Assembly: GCF_002844235.1 (NCBI RefSeq)
Contig: NZ_PGTS01000003.1
Coordinates: 558,001 to 622,000 of the forward strand
DNA length: 64,000 bases
Direction of reading: 5' to 3'
From: Thalassospira povalilytica
GTDB lineage: Bacteria; Pseudomonadota; Alphaproteobacteria; Rhodospirillales; Thalassospiraceae
The translations under genes were made by a program, and so were the position numbers. Below, in pieces: positions 23,906 to 55,530 of this stretch (positions are counted from its first letter, which is position 1; every line of letters starts with the position of its first letter). The notes beneath the pieces were generated by a model. That model was not told where the DNA came from. It saw only the letters and a list, made by a program, of their open reading frames with translations, and searched no databases.

Positions 23906-24004
23906 GTGAGAGACTGAACAGCGACCCGGAAAAACTCGTTACGGCTGCTACCTTCCGGTCCTGACCGGGTTGGCGAGCGGTCCGTCCACTGCCAGCCTCT
24001 CGCC
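23906..24004 (-). ncRNA. ffs: Small signal recognition particle RNA (4.5S type)
   Basis: Read on the minus strand it contains the universally conserved apical part GGTCAGGACCGGAAGGTAGC with the GGAA tetraloop and the AGCAGCC asymmetric loop, flanked by CCCGG / CCGGG helix strands. The outer ends pair too (GAGAGGCTG with CAGTCTCTC, one G-U). Length and placement directly upstream of dnaX are usual in alphaproteobacteria. It forms SRP with Ffh for membrane-protein targeting. Exact ends are estimated from pairing. Confidence 0.93.
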
Positions 24005-51822: not shown

Positions 51823-51853
51823 TCCAAAGACAGTCAGACATACAGATAAAAAA

Positions 51854-51886
51854 GCAACGGCCGCGAGGGAGGAGCACGGCCGTTGC
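51854..51886 (-). terminator. Terminator of trpE(G)
   Basis: 10-bp stem GCAACGGCCG / CGGCCGTTGC; in the minus direction the stem is followed by TTTTTT. A second stem-loop (51894-51940, GATCTGCGC / GCGCAGATC with an inner TGTGTC / GACACA pairing) lies between it and the trpE(G) stop. Confidence 0.75.
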
Positions 51887-51951
51887 GCTTTGTGATCTGC
51901 GCGATTGTGTCTTAAGGGGGGGATTGACACAGCGCAGATCGGGTGCAGGAA

Positions 51952-54189
51952 TCAAGCTGCCTTGATATCCGAAGTCATGGTGTCCGACGTTTCTTCTTCG
52001 CCGGGGCGGGTGCCATGCGGATTGCGCAACAGGTTGGCAATCATCCGCATTCCGACATCGCCCTGAAGGGTCAGAAGGCTTTCCGGATGGAATTGTACGG
52101 CACTGATCGGAAGGCTGCTGTGACGAATGCCCATGATCACGCCATCGTCACTTCGCGCCGTCACCTTCAGGTCCGCAGGTAGTTCAGCCGCCTTGGCAAA
52201 CAGGGAATGATACCGGCCAACAACAATGTCTTCGGGCAATCCGTCAAACAGCGGATCGGTGGTATCGAGTTTCACCTTTGACGGTTTGCCATGCATCGGT
52301 GTGACAAGTTGACCAAGTGACCCGCCGAAAAATTCGACAATTCCCTGCAATCCAAGACATACACCAAAGACTGGCAAGCCGGCCGCAAGGGCGCGTTCGA
52401 TGCTGTCGCGCAGATGGTAATCATCTGGACGGCCGGGACCCGGCGACAGGAAGACAAGATCGGGTTTGAAATCATCAAATGCCTCGTCCGGGAAGCCGGG
52501 ACGAAGTGTCAGTGTTTCGGCACCGGTTGCGCGGATATAGCTGGCAAGGTTTTGCACGAAGCTGTCTTCGTGATCGATCAAAAGAACGCGTTTGCCAATG
52601 CCCGAGCTTGCCGGGTCGATGGTGACTTCATCCTTGGCATCGCGGGTAACGGCATCAATCATTGCCGATGCCTTAAGGACGGTTTCGGCTTCTTCGGCGT
52701 CTGATTCACTATCATAGAGCAAGGTGGCACCGGCGCGGACTTCGGCGACACCCTGTTTCAGGCGCACAGTGCGCAAGGTCAACCCGGTATTGAGATCACC
52801 ATTACACAGAACCGCACCAATCGCCCCGCCATACCATGCGCGCGCACTGCGTTCGACGGCTTCGATATGTTGCATGGCTGCACGTTTGGGGGCACCCGTC
52901 ACAGTGACAGCCCAGCAATGGGTCAGAAAGGCATCAAGCGCATCAAACCCGTCACGCAGGCGGCCTTCGACATGATCGACCGTGTGGATCAGGCGTGAAT
53001 ACATTTCGATCTGGCGGCGACCAAGAATGCGGATGCTTCCGGGTTTGCAAACGCGGGCCTTGTCATTGCGATCAACATCGGTGCACATCGTCAGTTCCGA
53101 CTCATCCTTGGTCGAATTAAGCAATGTGCGAATGTTTTCGGCATCTTCAATCGCATCGCGACCACGGGCAATCGTGCCCGAAATCGGACAGGTTTCAATA
53201 CGCTGCCCTTTGACCCGGACATACATTTCGGGTGATGCACCAATAAGATGTTCCCCGTCACCAAGATTGATCAGGAAGCCATAAGGGGCCGGATTGCGGC
53301 GTTTAAGACGGCGGAAAATTTCCGAAGGTGCGGTGGCACAAGGGGTTCTGAAAACGCGGCTGGGGACAACTTCGAACAGTTCGCCACGGGCAAAGCGGGG
53401 CTTGGTTTCATCGACGATGGCGGCATATTCGCCGGTTTTCATGTCATTTTCGACAACGGCATTGTTGCCGCGCGATGGCGGATGGGGCTGGGAATTGCGG
53501 GGCAGGCCGGCCGTGCTGTGCCCGTCAGGGGTGATGAATTCGTATTCGATCCGGGTGGCGATTTTTGACGCATGATCGACCGTGATCAAACGGTCGGGCA
53601 GGAACAGGTGGATGTCCTTGTGATCGGACGGGCGGTCCTGTGTCAGGTTGATCTGTTCGAAATGAAGCGCGATGTCATAGCCGAACGCGCCATAAAGCCC
53701 CAGGCGTTCATCGCCCTTGTGACCAAACAGATCGCGCAGCGCGCGGACGACCGAAAACAGACTTGGTTGCTGACTGCGTTCTTCCTCGGCAAACCAGGAA
53801 GCGGGCTTTTTGACCACGCCATAAAGGCCATCTTCACCATCGGTGATGCTGTCGACATGCGGATGGCTTCCCAGAATGTCGGAAATCACATCCAGCAGGA
53901 CCCGACCGCGGTCATTCAAGGCCCTTACCGCGAAACCGCGTTCCCGCCCGACAATTTCAAGTGGCGGCGCATCAAACCCCATATCCCACCGTGAATAGCG
54001 ACCCGGGAATTCATAGCTTGAAGACAGAAGCACCCCCTTGGTCTGATCAAGGGCGTCAATCAGGCCTTCGGTGGCGTTTTCATAGCCAATGGTGGTCATG
54101 CGACGAATGACCGAAACACCGCCATCGGTGGTATATCGGTATTCGGCCTGATCGTCGGAAATGCCGGTTTCCTGAATTGGGGTCGTCAC
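51952..54189 (-). CDS. trpE(G): Fused anthranilate synthase, TrpE-TrpG
   Basis: 745 residues. The TrpE half includes FEVVPSRVFRTPC, PYGFLINLGDGEHLIGASPEMYVRV, ETCPISGTIARGRD and TVTGAPKRAAMQHIE; the TrpG half includes LIDHEDSFVQNLASYIRATG, LSPGPGRPDDYHL and the glutaminase nucleophile segment GVCLGLQGIVEFFGGSLGQL, ending in HPESLL. The fusion makes anthranilate from chorismate and glutamine. In Rhizobium and Azospirillum this fused gene is controlled by attenuation through a Trp-rich leader peptide; the same arrangement is visible here upstream (54258-54385). Confidence 0.96.
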   Translation of the reverse strand: MTTPIQETGISDDQAEYRYTTDGGVSVIRRMTTIGYENATEGLIDALDQTKGVLLSSSYEFPGRYSRWDMGFDAPPLEIVGRERGFAVRALNDRGRVLLDVISDILGSHPHVDSITDGEDGLYGVVKKPASWFAEEERSQQPSLFSVVRALRDLFGHKGDERLGLYGAFGYDIALHFEQINLTQDRPSDHKDIHLFLPDRLITVDHASKIATRIEYEFITPDGHSTAGLPRNSQPHPPSRGNNAVVENDMKTGEYAAIVDETKPRFARGELFEVVPSRVFRTPCATAPSEIFRRLKRRNPAPYGFLINLGDGEHLIGASPEMYVRVKGQRIETCPISGTIARGRDAIEDAENIRTLLNSTKDESELTMCTDVDRNDKARVCKPGSIRILGRRQIEMYSRLIHTVDHVEGRLRDGFDALDAFLTHCWAVTVTGAPKRAAMQHIEAVERSARAWYGGAIGAVLCNGDLNTGLTLRTVRLKQGVAEVRAGATLLYDSESDAEEAETVLKASAMIDAVTRDAKDEVTIDPASSGIGKRVLLIDHEDSFVQNLASYIRATGAETLTLRPGFPDEAFDDFKPDLVFLSPGPGRPDDYHLRDSIERALAAGLPVFGVCLGLQGIVEFFGGSLGQLVTPMHGKPSKVKLDTTDPLFDGLPEDIVVGRYHSLFAKAAELPADLKVTARSDDGVIMGIRHSSLPISAVQFHPESLLTLQGDVGMRMIANLLRNPHGTRPGEEETSDTMTSDIKAA

Positions 54190-54257
54190 GTTCAGATACT
54201 CCTTTTGGGGCCTAGTGCCGCAGGAGCCATGTGATGATCAGGAAAAAGGGAAGTCTG

Positions 54258-54325
54258 AAAAACACAAAGCCGCCTGCAAGAATGAGGCGGCCGGTATGTT
54301 CAGGGCATGTGTATTGGCCGCCCGC
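54258..54325 (-). promoter_or_regulatory. trp attenuator: antiterminator and terminator segments
   Basis: Reading leftward from the trpL stop: segment GCGGGCGGCC (54316-54325), then GGCCGCCT (54285-54292), then AGGCGGC (54269-54275). Segment 2 can pair with segment 1 or with segment 3; the 2:3 pair makes a stem followed by TTTGTGTTTTT (54258-54268), an intrinsic terminator. This is the mutually exclusive pairing expected of transcription attenuation. Confidence 0.8.
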
Positions 54326-54385
54326 TTAAGCGAGCCACCACCAACGATTGGAAATACGGATCGGGTTCATGCCATGTGTTTTCAT
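54326..54385 (-). CDS. trpL: trp leader peptide with three consecutive Trp codons
   Basis: 19 residues from the ATG at 54385: MKTHGMNPIRISN-R-WWW-LA. The TGG TGG TGG run at 54335-54343 is followed by three codons including the stop, and the antiterminator segment begins directly after the stop. Ribosome stalling at the Trp codons when tryptophanyl-tRNA is short would free the antiterminator. It lies 136 bases before the trpE(G) start. A weak GGTTTGAG site precedes it. Confidence 0.85.
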   Translation of the reverse strand: MKTHGMNPIRISNRWWWLA

Positions 54386-54417
54386 GGCTCAAACCATGTG
54401 CGCAAAATTTCCCGGCG

Positions 54418-55413
54418 TCAAGGCTTTTGCGTCGAGCTGTTGCCTTCTGCCTCTTTGAGTTCCATGTGCAGGGGCTGATGGCAATGCGGACAGGTAAGAA
54501 TCTCGTCACTTTCATTGCGGTGAACGTCGCGGATGTCATCAAGAACAGATTGGGCCTGTTCGTCACTGATCCCGAGTTCTTCCTGATGGGATTTCAGTTT
54601 GTGGCGAACCCGTTCTGTCAGACGTTTGCCCATCAGCTGACGGGTGGCCTGATGACGGTATTCATTTTCGCGACGTCGCAATTCCGCATTGAAGGCCGAT
54701 GCCAGAATACCGGCCGGAACCGCAACAATCCCGATCCCTGTCAGGGAAATGACACTGGCCAGGAATTTGCCAAACGGTGTGATTGGCACAACGTCGCCAT
54801 AGCCGACCGTGGCAAGGGTAATGACGCTCCAATACAATGCCTTAAGCAGGTTGCCAAATGCATCCGGCTGGGCTTCGTGTTCGGCGACATAGATCGCACC
54901 GGCACTGAATACCAGCATACAGGCCAGTGCGGCGCTGGCGGCACCAAAAATGCCCAATTGCTGTCGAAACACCAGCAACATCAATTCCAGCCCGGTGGAA
55001 TAGCGGGTGAATTTCAGCAAACGCAGCAACCGGATGATCCGCACAAATCGCAAATCGACGGATGTAAAGAACCACAGAAGGATCGGCAGGATCGCCAGAA
55101 GATCAATCAGCGCCATCGGCGTGAACATATAGCGCAGGCGTGCCCACGGGCGGCCGCTGAAACGTTCGTCATCGGGGGCGGACCAGACCCGCAATGCATA
55201 TTCGACGGTGAAGATCAGGGTGCAAACGATCTCGATGATGGCGAATTGCAGATAGTATCTTTCGGCCAGTTCGTGGACCGAGTCAAAAATCACCGACACG
55301 ACATTGATGACAATCGCACTGGCCAGAACCAGGTGAACGAACAGGGAAAGGCGCGAATGGCGTTCAACACCATGGAGCAATTTATGTGTCTTTGAACGAA
55401 GAGTCGCTGTCAT
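54418..55413 (-). CDS. Voltage-gated-type potassium channel
   Basis: 331 residues from the ATG at 55413 (a TTG at 55470 would add 19). Six membrane helices: the S4-like helix RFVRIIRLLRLLKFTRY carries five to six spaced positive residues, and the pore has TLATVGYGDVVPIT with the K+ selectivity filter. A cytoplasmic tail follows with basic/acidic helices and a last CPHCHQPLH that, with His residues, may form a small zinc site. It should be an inner-membrane Kv-type K+ channel. It lies between trpE(G) and trpF on the same strand. Confidence 0.9.
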   Translation of the reverse strand: MTATLRSKTHKLLHGVERHSRLSLFVHLVLASAIVINVVSVIFDSVHELAERYYLQFAIIEIVCTLIFTVEYALRVWSAPDDERFSGRPWARLRYMFTPMALIDLLAILPILLWFFTSVDLRFVRIIRLLRLLKFTRYSTGLELMLLVFRQQLGIFGAASAALACMLVFSAGAIYVAEHEAQPDAFGNLLKALYWSVITLATVGYGDVVPITPFGKFLASVISLTGIGIVAVPAGILASAFNAELRRRENEYRHQATRQLMGKRLTERVRHKLKSHQEELGISDEQAQSVLDDIRDVHRNESDEILTCPHCHQPLHMELKEAEGNSSTQKP

Positions 55414-55530
55414 GTCGCGCAAGCCCGATCCGGCAATAGAGTATTGATTGCCCGGTGAGTTTTGCGCCAATCGCTTCAGAAATGGTTAAATTATCAGGGC
55501 CTTATTTTCCGGCCCTGCTCAATTCGGTGA

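Follow-up and report, generated by a model that had tools for sequence, protein, structure and literature searches.

The textbook case of attenuation at tryptophan genes is that of E. coli, where the leader has a ribosome-binding site, contains two Trp codons, and precedes the trpEDCBA operon, which is in addition repressed by TrpR. In Azospirillum brasilense, a fused trpE(G) is equipped with a Trp-codon leader and an attenuator. The closest described system is the trpLE(G) attenuator of S. meliloti with its RNA rnTrpL (RcsR1) and its peptide peTrpL. According to reports on this RNA, rnTrpL begins with AUG and is translated as a leaderless mRNA (PMC7298713, PMC10117765), and it also acts in trans on other mRNAs (PMC7298713, PMC7143759). 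In the open-licence PMC literature, we found no work that links Thalassospira with anthranilate synthase.

We analyzed an element upstream of trpE(G) in Thalassospira povalilytica that lies in a window of 64,000 nucleotides, the whole stretch to which all plain coordinates refer. Judged from its sequence features, this element is with high confidence a ribosome-mediated transcription attenuator of trpE(G), and the switch very probably turns on trpE(G) only when tryptophan is scarce. The relevant features are as follows:

54416..54421, minus strand: -35 element TTGACG, its first base 36 nt ahead of the leader ATG, with TTGAC invariant in 29 of 29 genus sequences
54393..54398, minus strand: -10-like element CATGGT, degenerate, a weak match to the consensus
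54326..54385, minus strand: trpL leader peptide MKTHGMNPIRISNRWWWLA and its stop codon, 19 residues, read from the sequence and re-read by script
54329..54343, minus strand: segment 1 (UGGUGGUGGCUCGCU), which can pair with segment 2 by fold
54316..54325, minus strand: segment 2 (GCGGGCGGCC), whose last 8 bases pair with segment 3 (antiterminator)
54285..54292, minus strand: segment 3 (GGCCGCCT), common to antiterminator and terminator, with 0 of 8 columns variable
54269..54275, minus strand: segment 4 (AGGCGGC), the 3' arm of the terminator
54258..54268, minus strand: T-rich tract (TTTGTGTTTTT) of the terminator, with 2 of 11 columns variable
51952..54189, minus strand: trpE(G), fused anthranilate synthase of 745 aa, with the GTG start at 54189-54187

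The original prediction had described a 19-codon frame with three consecutive Trp codons, and upon re-reading its coordinates were exact to the base: the ATG is at 54385-54383, the TGG codons are leader codons 15-17 (54343-54335), and the TAA is at 54328-54326. Segments 2, 3, and 4 as well as the T-run behind the frame were likewise found by direct reading where they had been placed. The TAA directly adjoins segment 2, and 68 bases lie between the end of the T-rich tract (54258) and the trpE(G) GTG, ahead of which an AGGAG is found at 54203-54199 on the same strand. A short frame with tandem Trp codons thus directly precedes a trp gene, as in ribosome-mediated trp attenuators. The trpE(G) product matches NF010081 with 1079.9 bits (cut-off 645) and TIGR01815 with 1040.3 bits (cut-off 739.15).

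By its anatomy, the Thalassospira element would work like the trpE(G) attenuator of S. meliloti. Both precede a fused trpE(G), and both have a short leader with WWW near its end, a stop codon adjoining segment 2, and GGCGGC / GCCGCC / GGCGGC segments with a T-run. The leader comprises 19 aa in Thalassospira versus 14 in S. meliloti, the peptides differ outside the Trp run, and the Thalassospira genome differs from the S. meliloti system in that it encodes an unfused trpE besides trpE(G). The likeness to A. brasilense lies in the layout of a fused gene with a Trp-codon leader. With E. coli, the logic of a stalled ribosome and alternative hairpins is shared, whereas the ribosome-binding site, the two Trp codons, the trpEDCBA gene order, and TrpR set that system apart. 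The trp attenuator in Thalassospira is a known kind of switch with some new detail, and with it the range of the rhizobial trpL attenuator widens to include a marine genus.

Conservation was analyzed in a genus set of 29 sequences, consisting of 28 Thalassospira relatives and the own sequence; two further loci (L064 and L067), which repeated the own genome and G007, were excluded from all counts. A search for close relatives of the window among named genomes yielded 19 loci, 18 of them from Thalassospira and one from an unclassified Rhodospirillales MAG. At E <= 1e-150, trpE(G) was detected in the own genome and in all 28 other genomes of the genus (80-95% identical), and the leader was present in all 28 relatives searched. 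Conservation of the Trp codons had been set beforehand as a test, and WWW was invariant in 29/29 leaders, preceded by R in 28 of them and by H in L021; 200 dinucleotide-shuffled sets of the upstream regions contained a mean of 0.01 WWW leaders per set. Invariant columns across all 29 sequences comprised TTGAC, the three TGG codons, and segment 3, and variable columns accounted for 1/10 in segment 2, 1/7 in segment 4, and 13/21 in the loop between segments 2 and 3. In leader codons 2-14, we found 3, 6, and 6 variable sites at codon positions 1, 2, and 3, respectively, and there is therefore no clear synonymous bias in the peptide ahead of the Trp run.

In all 29 genus sequences, the distance from the first base of a -35-like box of the form TTG[AC][CG] (TTGAC within the genus) to the leader ATG is 35 or 36 nt, and RNA synthesis therefore probably starts at the leader AUG. 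In the genus alignment, the 17-nt promoter spacer is variable at 17/17 sites and TTGAC at none; in CATGGT, which is identical to TATAAT at three of six positions, 4/6 columns are variable with a mean majority of 0.81. The trpE(G) leader transcript is probably leaderless and starts at or within a base of the AUG, as far as can be judged from the promoter position, and a start site downstream of 54325 appears unlikely given the -35 box that is conserved ahead of the leader. At the S. meliloti locus, a -35-like TTGCG is found 37 nt before the leader ATG. A generic consensus scan of 54150-54650 reported 0 promoters and 0 terminators: the promoter escaped because CATGGT has only a 3/6 match to TATAAT, and the terminator because the scan permits loops of 3-8 bases and the simple stem has a loop of 9.

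The mutually exclusive folds that the original prediction had proposed were both formed when the minus strand was folded. The 2:3 and 3:4 pairings are intact in all 29 genus sequences, with 100% of cells paired in each, and the five-pair core of 1:2 has 95.9% of cells paired. When the partner was moved by 1-3 columns, 20-63% of cells were paired, a control that the true structures exceed partly by construction. No covariation was found in 2:3, 3:4, or 1:2 within the genus (n=29), as each pair was either invariant or changed on one side only, and the predicted pairings are supported by conservation and not by covariation. The same holds for the antiterminator and terminator as a pair, which exclude each other and have one segment in common. 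The 130-nt leader folds with -50.2 kcal/mol (z -3.77; 0/200 shuffles as good), and the terminator stretch 54256-54294 folds with -16.4 kcal/mol (z -3.69); across the genus, the terminator fold ranges from -14.2 to -16.8 kcal/mol in 29/29 sequences. For the stretch from the Trp codons to segment 3 (54285-54345), z was 0.21 and 111/200 shuffles were as good. In 12/29 sequences, folding without a ribosome yields as many pairs into segment 3 as a stall does, and the own sequence then forms 6/8 of these pairs. Due to this shuffle-like stability and the 12 ribosome-free folds into segment 3, the 1:2 hairpin is the least supported part. It is not a clear default fold, and its energy differs little from that of 2:3. 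At equilibrium, 3:4 beats 2:3 in the stretch that begins at the stop codon (54256-54328), which means that antitermination has to be kinetic, as it usually is in attenuators.

We computed the MFE fold of each sequence from a ribosome edge that was assumed to lie 16 nt beyond the first base of the respective codon. With this edge, a ribosome stalled at the first Trp codon does not cover segment 2, and segment 3 takes part in 8-11 pairs (-13.5 to -24.5 kcal/mol) in 29/29 sequences. With the ribosome at the normal stop codon, the rest of the fold was -4.0 kcal/mol or weaker in 28/28 sequences, and 3-9 weak pairs still touched segment 3. The S. meliloti control (L099), in whose record a trpE leader peptide TrpLE is annotated, behaved in the same way. 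Given the assumed footprint, the stop-codon position lets the ribosome cover segment 2 in 28/29 sequences.

The exception is L030, in which the leader TAA reads AAC. Its frame runs 12 codons further and ends 8 bases before GGCCGCC; in L030:1255-1350, WWWSANAGGQTHALITR is the continuation of the frame, whose end lies just ahead of segment 3. If L030 is read as written, a ribosome at its stop codon overlaps segment 3 and no free pairing is left. The extended leader had no family in Pfam and NCBIfam. A sequence error may conceivably account for the loss of the stop codon, though two bases differ. A leader without the normal stop codon represents a natural test of the stop-codon rule.

From the observed sequence, conservation, pairing potential, and geometry, we infer transcription start, translation, stalling, and termination as follows. 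Transcription would begin no more than one base away from the leader AUG, giving a leaderless end onto which ribosomes would load. When charged tRNA-Trp is scarce, the ribosome would stall at the first Trp codons and cover segment 1, whereupon segment 2 could pair with the emerging segment 3; this 2:3 pairing would block the 3:4 terminator, and trpE(G) would be transcribed. When tryptophan is plentiful, the ribosome would reach the stop codon and cover the adjoining segment 2, the 3:4 hairpin would form, and transcription would end after about 128 nt. The invariant Trp codons and the intact 2:3 and 3:4 pairings in 29/29 sequences argue for attenuation as originally predicted.

The gene upstream of the leader (54418-55470) is on the same strand and ion-channel-like, with matches below the curated cut-offs. 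Beyond it lies a gene for a trpF-type phosphoribosylanthranilate isomerase that scores above its cut-off. The own genome also has an unfused trpE (TIGR00564, 557.2 bits, cut-off 517.7), which is separated from trpGDC by the long open frame on the other strand:

G000:C2:680000-690000 (L098): unfused trpE, a long opposite-strand frame, then trpG-trpD-trpC in a row

The region upstream of this unfused trpE contained no short frame with either WW or three Trp codons, and upstream of trpG there was no tandem-Trp frame, only a single short frame with three scattered Trp codons. As neither gene has a tandem-Trp leader, the attenuator belongs to the extra, fused enzyme. An attenuated trpE(G) beside a trpE without a Trp leader lets one test why the bacterium keeps two anthranilate synthases. 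In a raw search of the own genome for ATG...TGGTGGTGG, which was not frame-aware, there were 73 + 32 matches. Three in-frame matches, picked by eye among the matches listed, were not taken as leaders, as each overlaps a longer open frame; by appearance only, one of these frames is LepA-type GTPase-like and one membrane transporter-like.

It was in principle conceivable that the hairpin is a mere intrinsic terminator of the ion-channel-like gene, with the WWW frame arising by chance, as the end of this same-strand gene (54418) lies about 125 bases ahead of the hairpin. We consider this extremely unlikely. The WWW frame occurs in 29/29 sequences versus 0.01 by shuffling, the conserved -35 box lies between the gene and the hairpin, segment 2 is conserved without being needed by a plain terminator, and loss of the Trp codons with retention of the hairpin was not seen in the 29 genus sequences. 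The unfused trpE and trpG in the own genome, together with the one relative that lacks the leader stop codon (L030), would fit the idea of a relic, with a spare trpE(G) whose switch no longer matters. However, the Trp codons, segment 3, and the -35 box are invariant across 29 sequences, and trpE(G) is kept in all 28 relatives, so that a relic is very improbable as well.

A further question, which would add to attenuation of trpE(G) and not replace it, is whether the attenuator RNA doubles as a stable sRNA of the rnTrpL/RcsR1 type, perhaps encoding a functional peptide, that targets other mRNAs such as trpGDC in trans. Reports on S. meliloti describe the counterpart as trans-acting (PMC7298713, PMC7143759), and the own genome contains both a separate trpE and a trpG-trpD-trpC cluster. 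The Rfam RcsR1 model (RF02552) aligns end to end with 21.3 bits (E 0.026 in a 251-base search). However, this value falls far short of the gathering score of 60, so that by the Rfam test the element does not belong to RcsR1, and it is also below the 98.1 bits of S. meliloti; E was 0.82 in an 8001-base search, and RcsR1 was absent at E <= 1 over nine genus loci. In one and the same search, the cut-off was passed by S. meliloti, R. leguminosarum, and Shinella, but by 0/8 genus loci. In a duplex scan that was crude and had no positive control, none of the candidate trans targets trpD, trpG, trpE, and trpC stood out above background: trpD reached -88.8 kcal/mol, yet 15% of 59 background stretches were as low, and the corresponding values were 10% of 60 for trpG, 29% of 59 for trpE, and 76% of 59 for trpC. 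On balance, an additional trans-acting function is possible but rather unlikely. The more specific idea that a leaderless dual-function RNA, released at plentiful tryptophan, might regulate the unattenuated trpE or trpGDC in trans and thereby link the two anthranilate synthases appears more doubtful still. If it holds, leaderless trpL leaders would be an old trait of alphaproteobacterial trpE(G).

Beyond the genus, trpE(G) was found at E <= 1e-150 in 1/31 other genomes of the order (60-genome search, own included). In a class sample of 385 genomes, two of which belong to the genus, there were 41 matches at this threshold, 39 of them above the family cut-off; 11 of the 41 were without a locus and were left out. 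The resulting 36 trpE(G) loci outside the genus comprise 28 from the class search, 1 from the order, and 7 of 15 plasmid records. A WW leader precedes trpE(G) in 18/36 of these loci, with L060 (only 127 upstream bases) and L083, both cut upstream, scored as misses. A -35-like box is located 36-38 nt before an in-frame ATG in 16/18 of the non-genus WW leaders, and in L066 and L103 it is a later in-frame ATG that fits the box. Frames of the leaderless type containing any Trp occur in 19/36 non-genus loci, compared to a mean of 0.81 and a maximum of 4 in 100 mononucleotide shuffles. These counts suggest that alphaproteobacterial trpE(G) genes commonly have leaderless leaders, in which the ATG follows the promoter at a distance of exactly one promoter length.

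In a quick TrpE(G) tree with long-branch warnings (6/29 genus rows used, L063 left out), the Thalassospira copies group with a sister genus and apart from the rhizobial copies. At about 265 bases ahead of the trpE(G) match, the three loci of this sister genus (L075, L076, and L077) carry a leaderless-type frame that contains one Trp codon. Across the class, the length of the Trp run may range from 4 to 1. Short single-Trp frames before trpE(G) were also seen by eye at L061, L065, and L079. A script search with strict rules found no terminator hairpin at many class loci, including L037 and L059, and under the other rules of the fold test a terminator hairpin was found at these two loci.

Just 3' of trpE(G), at 51849-51941 on the minus strand, there is a two-hairpin element with a CTCCTCCC loop and a T-run end. 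It has below-threshold Rfam matches to ar14 (32.6 bits, cut-off 58.8), ar7, CrfA, and CcsR1, and among nine genus loci the below-threshold ar14 match was also found in L010 and L027. The motif [CT]TCCTCC[CT] is present 3' of trpE(G) in 16/28 readable genus loci (L032 was too short). This element is possibly an anti-Shine-Dalgarno sRNA, or simply the trpE(G) terminator. Elsewhere in the window, 23906-24000 on the minus strand corresponds to an ordinary bacterial small SRP RNA (60.6 bits, cut-off 40).
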